64,000 nt of DNA from Flavonifractor sp. An10. Lineage in GTDB: Bacteria; Bacillota; Clostridia; Oscillospirales; Oscillospiraceae. Below are positions 51,375 to 58,240 of the stretch, piece after piece. The notes under the pieces are model-generated. The model ran no database searches, was not told the DNA's origin, and saw only the letters and a program-made list of their open reading frames with translations. The first letter of the stretch is position 1. Each line of letters begins with the position of its first letter. A program made the translations under genes and the position numbers. The stretch lies in contig NZ_NFMB01000003.1 of assembly GCF_002161215.1 (NCBI RefSeq), positions 186,001 through 250,000 on the forward strand. Reading direction: 5' to 3'.

Positions 51375-52639
51375 ATTACAACAAGAAAACCGTCAAGGAC
51401 ATCGACGTGGCCGGCAAGAAGGTTCTGCTGCGCTGCGACTTCAACGTGCCCCAGGATAAGGCCACCGGCGCCATCACCGACGACAAGCGCATCGTGGCCG
51501 CCCTGCCCACCATCCGCTATCTGCTGGAGCAGAAGGCCGCTGTGATCGCCTGCTCCCACCTGGGCAAGCCCGTGGCCACCTTTGACTCCTATGTGAAGAA
51601 GCAGGCCGAGAAGGGCAAGGATCCCGCCTCCATCACCGAGGAGGAGTGGAAGAAGTCCCTGGCCAAGCTGTCCCTGGCCCCTGTGGCCAAGCGGCTGAGC
51701 GAGCTGCTGGGCCAGGAGGTCATCATGGCCGCCGACGTGGTGGGCCCCGACGCCACCGCCAAGGCCGCCGCTCTCCAGCCCGGCCAGATCATGCTGCTGG
51801 AGAACACCCGCTTTGAGAAGGGCGAGACCAAGAACGACCCCGAGCTGGCCAAGAAGATGGCCTCCATGGCCGAGGTCTATGTGTCCGACGCCTTCGGCGC
51901 GGTGCACCGCGCCCACGCCTCCACCGCCGGTGTGGCGGCCTATCTGCCCGCCGTGTCCGGCTTCCTGATCCAGAAGGAGCTGGAGATCATGGGCGGCGCC
52001 CTGGCCAATCCCAAGCGGCCCCTGGTGGCCATCCTGGGCGGCTCCAAGGTGTCCTCCAAGATCGGCGTCATCAACAACCTGCTGGACATCGCCGACACCA
52101 TCATCATCGGCGGCGGCATGTGCTACACCTTCGCCAAGGCCATGGGCGCCAGCGTGGGCAAGTCCCTGCTGGAGAGTGACTGGCTGGACTACTGCAAGGA
52201 GATGATGCAGAAGGCCAAGGAGAAGGGCGTCAAGCTGCTGCTGCCCGTGGACGGCCTGGCCGCCACTGAGTTCTCCGCCGACGCCGCGGCCCACCCTGTG
52301 GACGGGGTGGACATCCCCGACGACATGATGGGCATGGACATCGGCCCCAAGACCATCGAGCTGTACACCGACGCGGTGAAGAACGCCGGCACCGTCATCT
52401 GGAACGGCCCCATGGGCGTGTTTGAGTTCCCCGCCTTCGCCGAGGGCACCCGCGCCATCGCCAAGGCCCTGGCCGAGTCCGACGCCATCACCATCGTGGG
52501 CGGCGGCGACTCCGCGGCCGCCGTGGCCCAGCTGGGCTATGCCGACAAGATGACCCACATCTCCACCGGCGGCGGCGCGAGCCTTGAGTTCCTGGAGGGC
52601 AAGGAGCTGCCCGGCGTGGCCTGCCTGTTGGATAAGTAA
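51371..52639 (+). CDS. pgk: phosphoglycerate kinase
   Basis: A 422-aa glycolytic kinase, about 25 residues longer than the usual 394-398; an extra lysine-rich stretch lies near residues 75-105 ([20 protein letters not shown]). Motifs: [42 protein letters not shown] and [15 protein letters not shown]. The final 28 coding nt recur at 53019-53046 behind a structured insert. It is followed by tpiA, gpmI and eno; no GAPDH gene is adjacent. Confidence 0.96.
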
Positions 52640-53046
52640 GAAGCGCGGCGCCGTCGCAAGCAGCCCGGATGGACCGGAGCGAGGGTGAGAACCCAGCCCC
52701 GCATAGCGGGGCGGTTCGAACCCGAGACGGAGGGAAGCCGGGCGTCGCGAACAGGCGAAGCGTGACAACTCGTGCCGGGCAGCTCCTTCGTCGGGATCCC
52801 CGCGCGAGCCCAGCGGCTTTGCCGCGGGTCGCGTGGGGAGAGTTTCCCGGAGAAGCGCCGCCAGTGGCGGAGGAAGCAAGCCGGGAAAAAGAAGCGGCGC
52901 GATTGACGGGCCGCTTCGGCCCGGGAATCGCAGTGCCGCGACGGGAGCAAAGGCACAGTGAAAGGATCGAGCTTTCCCGCCAGCGGGGAAGCGAGAGATC
53001 TGGAACTTGTGCCGACGAGCCCGGCGTGGCCTGCCTGCTGGATAAG
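52601..53046 (+). repeat. structured 3'-end element after pgk with duplicated gene tail
   Basis: The tail 52609-52636 recurs at 53019-53046 with one synonymous change (TTG to CTG); the copy has CAA in place of the stop. The coding segment AAGGAGCTGCCCGGC (52601-52615) has an exact inverted copy at 52774-52788. The insert holds GCCCGG/CCGGGC (52663 and 52738) enclosing GGGT-GAGA-ACCC, CCCCG/CGGGG and GGTTCGAACCC. Further stems are CCCCGCGCGA/TCGCGTGGGG (52798-52838) and GCTTTCCCGC/GCGGGGAAGC (52971-52992). It ends in GACGAG. This 495-bp gap has no gene. Confidence 0.85.
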
Positions 53047-53134
53047 CAAAAGGCCCGCGATTCCATGCCCGGCCGGCAAAGGGGTCGGCCGGTAAAATAA
53101 AATACAGAATTGAAGAAAGGGGTTCGTCCTACCC

Positions 53135-53911
53135 ATGAACAGGAGATACCGTAAGACGATTATCGCTGGAAACTGGAAAATGAACAAGACGCTGAGCGAG
53201 ACCAAGGCCTTTGCCGAGGAGCTCAAGCCCCTGCTGGGCCGCCCCAACTGGTGCGAGGTAGTCCTGTGCGTGCCCTATGTGAACATTCAGGCCGCCGTGC
53301 GCATGTTCAAGGAGTGCCGGGTGTCCATCGGCGCGGAGAACTGCCACTTTGAGTCCCACGGCGCCTACACCGGCGAGGTCTCCCCCGAGATGCTCAAGGA
53401 GCTGGGCGTCAAGTACGTGGTCATCGGCCACTCCGAGCGCCGCCAGTACTACAACGAGACCGATTTCACCGTCAACAAGAAGGTGCACGCCGCCCTGGAG
53501 GCCGGCCTGTACCCCATCGTGTGCGTGGGCGAGAGCCTGGAGCAGCGGGAGCTGGGCGTCACCATGGATCTCATCTCCTACCAGGTGAAGGCCGCCCTGT
53601 CCGGCGTGCCCGCCGAGAAGATGCGCCACGTGGTCATCGCCTATGAGCCCATCTGGGCCATCGGCACCGGCAAAACCGCCACCGCCGAGCAGGCCGGCGA
53701 GGTGTGCGAGGCCATCCGCACTGTAATCCGCAAGCTGTACGGCGCCCGGGTGGCCCGCAGCGTCACCATCCAGTACGGCGGCTCCATGAACGCCAAGAAC
53801 GCCCATGAGCTGCTGGCCCAGCCCGACGTGGACGGCGGCCTGATCGGCGGCGCCTCCCTGAAGGCCCCCGACTTCGTGGAGATCGTCAACGCCGCCAATC
53901 AGGAGCAGTAA
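53135..53911 (+). CDS. tpiA: triosephosphate isomerase
   Basis: A 258-aa TIM barrel of standard length. Motifs: [22 protein letters not shown] with the catalytic His, [14 protein letters not shown] with the catalytic Glu, and QYGGSMN. It interconverts dihydroxyacetone phosphate and glyceraldehyde 3-phosphate. AGAAAGGGG precedes the ATG. Its last 29 codons are repeated three more times downstream. Confidence 0.97.
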
Positions 53912-56216: not shown

Positions 56217-56338
56217 CAATTGAAAATTGAGAATTGACAATTTGTGTGCTGGCCGGCGTGGCTGCATGGACTTCGTTTTATCTGCCCATGTTCCGATGTG
56301 GGAGAATTATCAATTATCCATTATCAATTCTCAATTCC
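56211..56338. repeat. AT-rich inverted-repeat element (copy 5, gpmI-eno)
   Basis: Arms AATTGACAATTGAAAATTGA and TCAATTATCCATTATCAATT surround a core of about 60 nt. The element starts inside the gpmI stop codon. A separate GC palindrome (GGCGGGAG-CAAG-CTCCCGCC, 56357-56376, and further CCCCGCC words to 56452) follows before eno. Confidence 0.8.
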
Positions 56339-56473
56339 TCCAAGCGGTATCCGGCGGGAGCAAGCTCCCGCCCTACCATAGATCCCCGGCGGGCGGAGGC
56401 CCGTCCCCCACACAATCCTACCCCTGCGGGGCGGGGCTTGTCCCCGCCGCCAAGACGAAAGGAGTTTTTACCC

Positions 56474-57775
56474 ATGAAGCAGATTATCGAGATCGTCGAC
56501 GTCCTGGGCCGCGAGATCCTGGACAGCCGCGGCAACCCCACCGTTGAGGTGGAGGTCTACCTGGAGGACGGCACCGTCGGCCGCGCCGCCGTGCCCTCCG
56601 GCGCCTCCACCGGCATCTATGAGGCCTGTGAGCTCCGGGACGGCGACAAGAGCCGTTACCTGGGCAAGGGCGTGCTCACCGCCGTGAAGAACGTGAACAC
56701 CGAGATCGCCGAGTGCCTGGTGGGCATGAACGTGCTGGATCAGACCGCCATCGACAAGGCCCTCATCGAGCTGGACGGCACCCCCAACAAGACCAAGCTG
56801 GGCGCCAACGCCATCCTGGGCGCCTCCCTGGCCTGCGCCAAGGCTGCCGCTGAGAGCCTGGGCACCTCCCTGTACAACTATATCGGCGGCGCCAACGCCA
56901 AGGTGCTGCCTGTGCCCATGATGAACATCCTCAACGGCGGCGCTCACGCCACCAACAACGTGGAGATCCAGGAGTTCATGATCATGCCCGTGGGCGCCTG
57001 CTGCTTCCGTGAGGCCCTGCGCATGTGCGCCGAGGTGTTCCACCAGCTGAAGAAGACCCTGAAGGAGAACGGCACTCCCGCCGCCGGCGTGGGCGACGAG
57101 GGCGGCTACGCCCCCAACCTGAAGAAGGACGAGGACGCTCTGAAGGTCATCGTGAAGGCCATCGAGGAGGCCGGCTACAAGCCCGGCGAGGACTTCAAGA
57201 TCGCCATCGACGCCGCCTCCTCCGAGTGGTGGAACGAGGAGGAGAAGTGCTATATCCAGCCCAAGTCCGGCAAGAAGCTGACCCAGCAGCAGCTGGTCAA
57301 CATGTGGAAGAAGTTCGCCGACACCTACCCCATCGTCTCCCTGGAGGACGGCATGGCCGAGACCGACTGGGAGGGCTGGGCTATGCTCACCAAGGCCATC
57401 GGCGACCGCGTGCAGCTGGTGGGCGACGACCTGTTCGTCACCAACACCGAGCGGCTCAAGACCGGCATTGAGAAGAAGGTGGCCAACGCTATCCTCATCA
57501 AGGTCAACCAGATCGGCACCCTGACCGAGACCCTGGACGCCATCCAGATGGCCAACCGGGCCGGCTACACCGCCATCGTGTCCCACCGCTCCGGCGAGAC
57601 CGAGGACGCCACCATCGCCGACATCGCTGTGGCCGTCAACGCCGGCCAGATCAAGACCGGCGCTCCCAGCCGCACCGACCGCGTGGCCAAGTACAACCAG
57701 CTGCTCCGCATCGAGGAGGAGCTGGGCGACGTGGCTCAGTATCTGGGTATGGGCGCTTTCTTCAACCTCAAATAA
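56474..57775 (+). CDS. eno: enolase
   Basis: A 433-aa enolase of standard length. Motifs: [66 protein letters not shown] and [14 protein letters not shown]. It dehydrates 2-phosphoglycerate to phosphoenolpyruvate. AAAGGAG precedes the ATG at 56474. Its last 14-15 codons and its terminator are both repeated downstream around a structured element. Confidence 0.97.
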
Positions 57776-58240
57776 TTGTGGGAACCTCAAGGGGCCGCTG
57801 CCAATGGCAGCGGCCCCGTTTTGTGTCGCCCAGCTCCTCGGGGCCCCGCCTCCGGCGGGGCGGCGCTGTGCGCCGTGAATAGGAATCAGGAACGGGGCCC
57901 CCGCACGAGCCCAGCGGCTTTGCCGCGGGTCGTGTGGGGAGAGGAGGAGCAAGGGAGCGGAAGGAGGAATGCCCATGTCTGGGCGTTCCGACTGGAGTGG
58001 ACTTTGCGACGACGAGGCTCAGTACCTGGGCATGAACGCTTTCTTCAACCTCAAGTAAGAAGAAGCGCGGAGCCGTCGTGAGCAGCCCGGATGGATCGGA
58101 GCGAGGGCGAGAACCCAGCCCCGCACAGCGGGGCGGTTCAAGTCCGAGACGGAGGGAAGCCGGGCGTCGCGAACAGGCGAAGCGTGACAATCGAAGGAAC
58201 CACAAGGGGTCGCTGTCATGGACGGCGGCCCCTTTTTCTG
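57716..58240 (+). repeat. structured 3'-end element after eno with duplicated tail and terminator
   Basis: The eno tail recurs at 58013-58058, with three synonymous changes and one Gly-to-Asn change. The eno terminator (57784-57822) recurs in altered form at 58196-58238. GAGGAGCTGGGCGAC (57716-57730, coding) has an exact inverted copy at 57825-57839. Stems: CCCCGCACGA/TCGTGTGGGG (57899-57939) and GGAATGCCC/GGGCGTTCC (57966-57989), then TTTGCGACGACGAG. After the tail copy a second unit starts AAGCGCGGAGCCGTCG and closes GCCCGG/CCGGGC (58085-58165). The 556-bp gap has no gene. Confidence 0.88.
57784..57823 (+). terminator. terminator of eno
   Basis: The stem GGGGCCGCTGCC/GGCAGCGGCCCC is followed by GTTTTGT. 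Confidence 0.85.

Follow-up and report, generated by a model that had tools for sequence, protein, structure and literature searches.

Group I introns carry an internal guide that makes the P1 and P10 pairings. Rickettsia palindromic elements (RPEs) are structured repeats of ~100-150 nt that occur in frame in coding sequences (CDSs) and in RNA genes, integrative elements use the 3' ends of genes as attachment (att) sites where they supply a new end and displace the old one, and an IS110 element of the bridge-RNA type carries a recombinase gene together with a two-loop guide RNA. The Clostridium tetani group II intron C.te.I1 is reported to undergo alternative splicing into several coding messages, with the unspliced RNA coding as well, and to have a 5' splice site set by pairing between guide and exon (PMC3919590). 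Two further reports describe repetitive extragenic palindromic (REP)/GTAG-CGTC tagged palindromes of 20-40 bp, mostly downstream of genes and hypothesised to be moved by RAYT transposases (PMC3733652), and the IS110 bridge RNA as a structured RNA with programmable guides for the target junction (PMC11208160). Here we describe a stretch of 64,000 nucleotides (the window) of Flavonifractor sp. An10, G000:C9:186001-250000, where G000 is this source genome and G001 and higher numbers denote the other genomes compared. In the window, the ends of several genes, essential ones among them, are duplicated around a short linker preceded by a gene-specific inverted copy, X', of a short coding segment, X; the conservation of the second end as protein code suggests that the cells can splice one end for the other. 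A first-pass annotation of this DNA knew of no described element of this kind, and none was found in the open literature either, most subscription journals and preprints being outside the coverage.

The unit has the order gene body (U), junction, tail T1, stop codon, short gap, X', linker, tail T2. Gene-end duplications with X' and a linker were found at pgk, tpiA, eno and ssnA, where the shared geometry proposed in the first-pass annotation holds, but not at the gene that it labelled PHP, where the plan is reversed. X differs at each gene and always matches its host, as had been noted; the second copy, however, does not begin with the whole of X. T2 starts at the right end of the linker, at a junction lying inside X, and X' is thus a reverse complement spanning the junction (~8 nt upstream and ~6 nt downstream of it). 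The exact X/X' arms are 15 nt at pgk and eno, as originally given, but 16 nt instead of 15 at tpiA, 19 nt instead of 18 at ssnA (read from the sequence, split ~5 + 14 around the junction) and 12 nt instead of 11 at PHP. The linkers are related elements, but they fall into two families, L1 (pgk, tpiA, eno), a folded element of ~115 nt, and L2 (ssnA, PHP). At loci with a single L1, X' mostly abuts the linker. Gene names rest on inspection of the translations by eye, with confirmation by Pfam for pgk and eno. The features of the four gene-end loci are as follows (window positions).

52601..52615, + strand: pgk X (9 nt upstream and 6 nt downstream of the junction 52609/52610), exact 15-nt inverted pair with 52774-52788
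52610..52639, + strand: pgk tail copy T1 with stop codon
52640..52768, + strand: unrelated ~130-nt dispersed repeat GAAGCGCGG...GCGTGACA in the pgk stop-to-X' interval
52774..52788, + strand: pgk X', inverted junction copy
52789..53019, + strand: pgk L1, interrupted by extra sequence (231 nt, usually ~115 nt), two weak model matches
53020..53046, + strand: pgk tail copy T2, stop codon lost (CAA)
53821..53836, + strand: tpiA X (10 nt upstream and 6 nt downstream of the junction 53830/53831)
53831..53911, + strand: tpiA tail copy T1 with stop codon
53912..53927, + strand: tpiA X' of the first unit, with a compensatory change in another genus
53932..54052, + strand: L1 of tpiA unit 1, L1 model match
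54053..54133, + strand: tpiA tail copy 2
54154..54274, + strand: L1 of tpiA unit 2, L1 model match
54275..54355, + strand: tpiA tail copy 3
54376..54496, + strand: L1 of tpiA unit 3, L1 model match
54497..54574, + strand: fourth tpiA tail copy, probably native (it matches the G019 tail at its end and in the bases that follow)
57716..57730, + strand: eno X, exact 15-nt inverted pair
57734..57775, + strand: eno T1 with stop codon; the 3' flank runs through a terminator-like hairpin (by eye) to X'
57825..57839, + strand: eno X'
57890..58016, + strand: eno L1, L1 model match
58017..58058, + strand: eno tail copy T2 with stop codon
26297..26315, + strand: ssnA X, read from the sequence
26302..26371, + strand: ssnA tail copy T1 with stop codon
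26380..26398, + strand: ssnA X', read from the sequence
26399..26500, + strand: ssnA linker, family L2 (pattern matches and consensus structure)
26501..26570, + strand: ssnA tail copy T2 with stop codon, differing from T1 by 4 synonymous and 0 other codon differences

The tpiA locus consists of three units in tandem, 222 nt each. The two model matches in the interrupted L1 of pgk lie at C9:238789-238893 (40 bits) and C9:238904-239019 (62.7 bits); pgk L1 of G019 scores 114 bits. When 224 open reading frame (ORF) ends of the window were scanned, 13 direct-repeat matches scoring at least 16 were obtained, comprising all named loci, duplicate ORF readings and some unrelated repeats. Two of 65 mid-ORF controls passed, one of them (score 138) within the tpiA repeats and the other with a score of 16.

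Across the genomes compared, the analysis of L1 surroundings covered 145 copies, of which 53 are from G000 (out of 62) and 92 from its relatives (out of 140). Of these, 42 precede a stretch duplicated from their left, defined as a direct repeat starting no more than 3 bases from the right end of L1. The duplicated tails were assigned, from the T1 reading frames and the flanks, to fusA, pgk, tpiA, eno, rpoD, smc, infB and ilvC, and further to genes for an enoyl-CoA hydratase, an FAD oxidoreductase and a response regulator, to an rnhA-like gene and to others; the exceptions were one plain repeat and one antisense gene start resembling lepA. In smc of G006 (L282) three intact tails stand in series, separated first by L2, with an upstream junction, and then by L1.

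Tail T2, which lies behind a stop codon, varies in the manner of a coding sequence. In 37 events T1 and T2 differed by 69 synonymous and 20 other codon changes, when ~24% synonymous would be expected from the codons. Between species the T2-T2 differences were 175 synonymous and 88 not, and the T1-T1 differences 173 and 52; neither the species pairs nor the events from related genomes are independent, which tells against the splicing proposal made below. The 37 events are the 42 direct-repeat events less the C12:49570 repeat, two tandem tpiA units, two L166 rows (antisense gene start), C10:457120 (T2 longer, different tail) and L151, L182 and L190, whose frames are unclear, plus four added by eye (ssnA, rpoD of G000, tpiA of G014 and tpiA of G309); ilvC of G019 and of G000 fell short of the repeat rule and are in no count. 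If C10:457120 and L166 are kept, the numbers become 64/45 over 36 framed events, a count in which smc of G019 is misframed. The T2 stop codon was kept in 32 of 33 script-framed events, and at pgk and rpoD the similarity between species ends at the T2 stop. In rpoD of G000 the tails differ at 8 codons, all synonymously, including switches between Ser and between Arg codon families. At the enoyl-CoA hydratase gene, G000 and G008 share a residue difference between the tails, Thr in T1 (KRTEK) but Ala in T2 (KRAEK), which indicates that both copies predate the split of these two genomes. This codon pattern disfavours the view of T2 as a neutral relic. Since L1 contains a stop in the frame of T2 in 9 of 33 events, T2 does not depend on being read through L1, and its reading as an L1-T2 fusion was rejected in general. 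Among these 9 are rpoD of G002 and of G005, with T1 and T2 differing at 5 and 4 codons, respectively, all synonymously. If T2 is under coding selection behind a stop codon, it must be joined to the gene body, this being the only way.

The state of T2 also tends to go with that of the other parts. Events with X' had 55 synonymous and 10 other codon differences and those without X' had 14 and 10 (Fisher p = 0.019, the contrast having been chosen post hoc). In rpoD of G019, where L1 is deleted except for ~26 nt, T2 contains the changes H>R, L>R and L>P and has no stop codon; pgk of G000 combines an interrupted L1 with the loss of the T2 stop. The parts of the unit are conserved, and their interdependence is shown in part.

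X'-to-junction pairing had a median of 28, compared with 19 for mismatched X'/X from other genes. The 95% point of this null was 28 and the 99% point 36, and 13 of 38 events reached the latter: the pairing between X' and the junction is not due to chance. The best pairing spanned the junction in 26 of the 38 events and did not in 12. The scoring misses an X' located more than 90 nt left of L1, as at pgk of G000, and overlooks copies apparently associated with L2 where both linkers occur in one composite locus (fusA, response regulator, rnhA-like), so that 26 of 38 may be low. In tpiA of G309, which is from a different genus of the same family, the junction is the same and X and X' have changed together (GACGTG/CACGTC versus GACATC/GATGTC); the unit seems to have been in tpiA since before the two genera split.

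The L1 consensus, derived from 15 copies, has 34 base pairs, 22 of them with compensatory changes, and served for building a profile model. With this model 62 copies were found in G000 (E <= 0.001). At E <= 1e-12, L1 was detected in all 20 genomes of the genus, G000 included, with 50 copies in G000, 24 each in G014 and G019, 17 in G008 and 2-9 in the others. With stricter filters it was present in 62 of 295 genomes, representing 43 of the 148 genera sampled in the order. The linkers are therefore not confined to a few loci in one assembly; such confinement is what the first-pass annotation had named as fatal to its proposal. That annotation had missed the coding constraint on T2, the spanning of the junction by X', the conserved structure of L1, the L1 copies without duplication, which are the majority in G000, and the age of the duplications. 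Among 108 aligned copies 97.6% of the cells were paired and 31 of the 34 pairs had double changes. The covariation score was 0.640, as opposed to 0.063-0.103 with slid partners and 0.191 with shuffles, in an alignment fitted to the model, which favours this score. G-U pairs are common on the sense strand, for example in 45 of 107 rows at the column pair 14-49, indicating that it is the sense strand of L1 that folds. L1 is an old, conserved, structured element folding as a single strand. For L2, 17 distinct pattern matches were found among the sequences compared, and 14 of the 33 pairs of its consensus structure (9 copies) showed a compensatory change.

Rfam scans (the window at gathering score, 53700-58300 at E <= 5 and 8 loci at E <= 1) gave no match to L1 and none to a group I or group II intron, and the weak matches in 53700-58300 were all under their cut-offs. 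A match to BSnc120 was dismissed: it scored 29 bits against a cut-off of 114 and lay on the other strand of L164, just past its L1.

The explanation that fits best, which we consider possible if short of probable, is that these units mediate an intron-like, guide-directed swap of tails at the RNA level, for which we infer cutting, joining and a catalyst. Inserted close to where a gene ends, [T1 - stop - gap - X' - L] would be an optional RNA-guided intron that brings its own spare tail. In the messenger RNA (mRNA), X' would base-pair on one side with the end of the upstream exon and on the other with the beginning of T2, located immediately 3' of L1, and would act as a splint holding the two side by side, in the manner of a group I internal guide. 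Cleavage at the junction and at the linker's 3' end would be followed by joining of the upstream exon to T2; the catalyst could be L1 itself or a protein. Spliced and unspliced messages would encode the same protein, ending in T2 or T1, respectively, so that the insertion would be harmless and both tails could be under selection. More tentatively, the units might represent a new class of bacterial RNA-guided splicing element, in which the mRNAs of essential genes (rpoD, smc, pgk, tpiA, eno) are cut and religated so that the gene body receives a spare tail, under the direction of a small structured RNA whose 5' guide is specific to each gene. The coding constraint on T2 and its link to X' and L1 would also be accounted for by another RNA- or ribosome-level route to T2, such as ribosome bypassing promoted by the X:X' stem or slippage of RNA polymerase between the repeats. 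A bypassing ribosome would need to hop ~150-400 nt with an intact T1 right before it, and neither route explains a structured L1 with a fixed 3' end; we regard them as very improbable.

The distribution of the units among species bears on their age. The nearest L1 in another genome was at the same gene for 60 of 72 labelled copies (shuffled labels: mean 2.8, maximum 13), in a test that covers 76 labelled copies, 69 of the 145 having no label, and in which at least one label is wrong (ilvC at C9:107876, counted as a miss). Such clustering by gene across species indicates that the insertions are old. In the rpoD units of different species, the sequence from the T1 stop to X' is scrambled, X', L1 and T2 are conserved up to the T2 stop, and the sequence beyond is scrambled again; pgk shows the same pattern with a short gap. 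Variation of the gap beside a constant X' and L1 is greatest at rpoD and is seen also at pgk and the FAD oxidoreductase gene. As to a terminator or an mRNA 3' end as the source of T1, a terminator-like hairpin is included in the T1 copy and precedes X' at eno and fusA, but pgk and tpiA have no such hairpin.

Empty alleles, whose existence the first-pass annotation had made a test of insertion, do occur; together with the host-specific X and the related linkers they bear out its interpretation in part. The pgk gene of G018 is empty and reads ...GACGCTTAATAGACAG; in pgk of G016 this native 3' flank follows the second tail copy, and the added part is T1-X'-L1 in front of that copy. There is no duplication at tpiA of G019. 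At rpoD the unit is intact in 5 genomes, broken in G019 and was not seen in the stretch examined in 13 others, of which the G004 contig ends soon after the gene. Occurrence of the same sites in many assemblies, including an apparent isolate genome (rpoD of G002), led us to reject an assembly artefact.

These alleles are what would be expected of a gene-specific homing or integrative mini-element acting on DNA, which, like islands that integrate at gene 3' ends, brings tail T1, displaces the native T2 and moves between strains at the same gene, with X' as a copy of the site that serves in recognition or guiding. The functional look of T2 would then reflect its recent use as the working tail, or its return to that use after excision. 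At pgk of G016 the tail continuous with the empty-allele flank is indeed T2, and T1 is the added copy; likewise tpiA copy 4 matches the G019 tail. The clustering of L1s by gene, the weaker constraint between T2s than between T1s and the alternation of occupied and empty rpoD alleles among species fit as well. Set against this, T1 and T2 of one genome share species-specific states (at pgk DK/DK or DA/DA in 6 of 7), which argues that T1 is not foreign and disfavours its import from another species, while residues specific to T1 or to T2 are common to several species, which argues that both copies persisted together. The decay of T2 at the broken L1 of rpoD in G019 is not predicted by such an element, and the units, of ~200-300 nt, showed no recombinase gene, though a partner recombinase was not searched for. 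Taken together, a mini-element appears rather unlikely.

Most L1 copies stand without a duplicated tail. In G000, 44 of the 53 copies studied lack a duplicated stretch beginning where L1 ends on the right. The other 103 of the 145 copies comprise a few sub-threshold tail duplications (rpoD and ilvC of G000, ilvC of G019, L201 of G001) and plain copies; the plain copies inspected by eye, without scoring, had no X'. By eye, plain copies occur before tmRNA, 23S rRNA or start codons, at tRNA 3' ends and in genes resembling those of conjugative elements. L1 ends just before the presumed mature 5' end of tmRNA in four species (L086, L178, L192, L198) and of 23S rRNA in one (L197), where it could mark a processing site. 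In phosphatase-like and mutL-like genes (names by eye; two genomes each) the frame is open through L1. In six species L1 replaces the P12 hairpin of RNase P RNA (rnpB) and is apparently kept there; P12 is short in seven other genomes and replaced in three (G002, G004, G017) by a different, unrelated hairpin insert of 120 nt. Judged from rnpB of 16 genomes (L208-L225), P12 is an insertion hot spot. In G000, 14 L1 matches, some of them weak, are clustered at C12:36571-73295 among other repeats (GTAGGGGCGGATATCATCCGCCCG and similar hairpins with variable arms), and a phage-portal-like gene (L096, C10:457120) has L1 and two C-termini of unequal length.

Two loci have the duplication at the start of a gene. 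The features of the PHP locus (3165-3454), where the gene start is duplicated on the opposite strand with the other linker, L2, are the following.

3165..3244, + strand: displaced copy of the PHP gene start, ATG>ACG
3245..3362, - strand: L2-type linker in reverse orientation, read from the sequence
3363..3374, - strand: PHP X', 12 nt, complementary to 3443-3454, read from the sequence
3375..3454, + strand: intact PHP gene start

The second case is an antisense duplication of a lepA-like start around L2 and L1 at L166 of G008.

Plain copies and gene-start cases are what a palindromic, RPE- or REP-like element would produce if its insertion left a scar consisting of a long flank duplication made by template switching and a foldback copy, X'. 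T2 would then be a relic kept similar by recombination between direct repeats, and the units would be found at gene ends because only insertions that leave the gene whole survive. The prevalence of L1 without duplication in G000 and its in-frame occurrence in CDSs elsewhere agree with this, and the gene-start cases show that the architecture forms where splicing is no help. Recombination between repeats is evident from the tandem units and from T1=T2 identity (tpiA, G294, G007/G017), and ilvC of G019 has a decayed T2 beside an intact L1. G000 also has 12 matches to Y1 transposases (one a fragment), although the two loci inspected were without L1. A relic, on the other hand, should not keep X', the L1 pairing and a synonymous-biased T2 over genus-scale time, and direct repeats ~200 nt apart should be lost quickly. 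Sense-tail cases, judged by reading frames, also far outnumber antisense-head cases. In our estimate an insertion scar is unlikely.

Several observations weigh against splicing, which is proposed here from sequence comparison. The apparent retention of L1 in rnpB and its presence in frame in two genes imply that L1 as such need not be excised, and at PHP and the lepA-like gene splicing would not help the gene. L1 and L2 are unrelated and nevertheless occupy the same place, which is odd if L1 is the catalyst; the absence of an Rfam match means that L1 has no recognised catalytic core, and the folding energy of one whole unit was ordinary compared with shuffles (z = -1.05). Efficient splicing would allow an intron to lose T1, and yet T1 is conserved as well. 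The two tails are partly homogenised, with no difference between them in G007 or in G017. The contrast between events with and without X' is weak: p rises to 0.045 when the four by-eye events are omitted and to 0.085 if the hand-set pgk of G000 is also moved. At ilvC of G019 the T2 stop was lost beside an L1 of 117 bits, missense changes in T2 occur despite X' and an intact L1 (L>R in rpoD of G014, A>V and F>I in tpiA of G014), and fusA, for which no X' of L1 was found, shows no clear constraint (T2-T2 27/36).

A second repeat, unrelated to the units, accompanies some of them. The block GAAGCGCGGAGCCGTCG, which the first-pass annotation took for the left block of the linker, opens a separate dispersed repeat of ~130 nt that is present in the pgk and eno loci and lies outside the linker; the idea of a single linker family bounded on the left by the GAAGCGCGG block was rejected on this ground. 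Both linker blocks named in that annotation score above all 100 window shuffles. The repeat, GAAGCGCGGAG...GCGTGACA, has 9 matches in G000 and is absent from the pgk stop-to-X' interval in six other occupied congeners. In the window it occurs at 5008-5140, 5143, 52640-52768, 54575 and 58062-58190, often directly behind stop codons and also in tandem (L005). A remnant was also found:

54597..54651, + strand: short remnant with both end blocks, GAAGCGCGGAGCCGTCG...TTTGCGGCGACGAG

The Rfam scan also detected the ssnA RNA (RF03031) at 24886-24935, upstream of the gene of that name.

If the units are spliced, they would constitute an RNA-splicing system with a replaceable guide of ~15 nt and a scaffold of ~115 nt, unlike the known bacterial group I and group II introns, in core genes of gut bacteria. 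The working copy of the gene's end would allow the element to sit in essential genes without harm, a natural answer to the question of how an intron lives in an essential gene. If they are not spliced, the coding conservation of a gene end behind a stop codon needs explaining. In either case L1 is a large, widespread structured RNA family without an Rfam match in the scans run, and its units could mislead the annotation of gene ends.

Among described systems, IS110 elements share with the unit a structured RNA with a guide, but the unit is too short for a recombinase gene, its guide lies 5' of the scaffold instead of in loops and it has a duplicated tail, so that it is not a member of that family. 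Elements using gene 3' ends as att sites differ from the unit, which has ~200-300 bp, no recombinase and, in addition, the gene-specific inverted copy X'. The likeness to REP sequences consists in the dispersed hairpin and in the right end of L1, which reads CTCGTC on the other strand; L1 is longer, and guides or tail copies are absent from the cited summary of REPs. RPE-like behaviour is seen in the occurrence of L1 in frame in CDSs and in an RNA gene (rnpB), whereas a gene-specific inverted guide and a duplicated conserved gene tail are, to our knowledge, not part of RPEs. As in introns, a guide pairs with the exon ends at the junction: in group I introns the guide contacts the 5' exon at its end and the 3' exon at its start, in the order also found for X'. 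In contrast to group I introns, the unit is far too small, its pairing is exact with no U-G at the cut, and its 5' end is gene sequence. With C.te.I1 as described, the unit has in common a bacterial gene, several coding messages and guide pairing at the 5' site; there a group II ribozyme generates distinct isoforms, whereas here a ~115-nt element follows a spare tail and the tails are nearly identical. C.te.I1 is the nearest working parallel, and the Rickettsia palindromic elements are the nearest genomic one.

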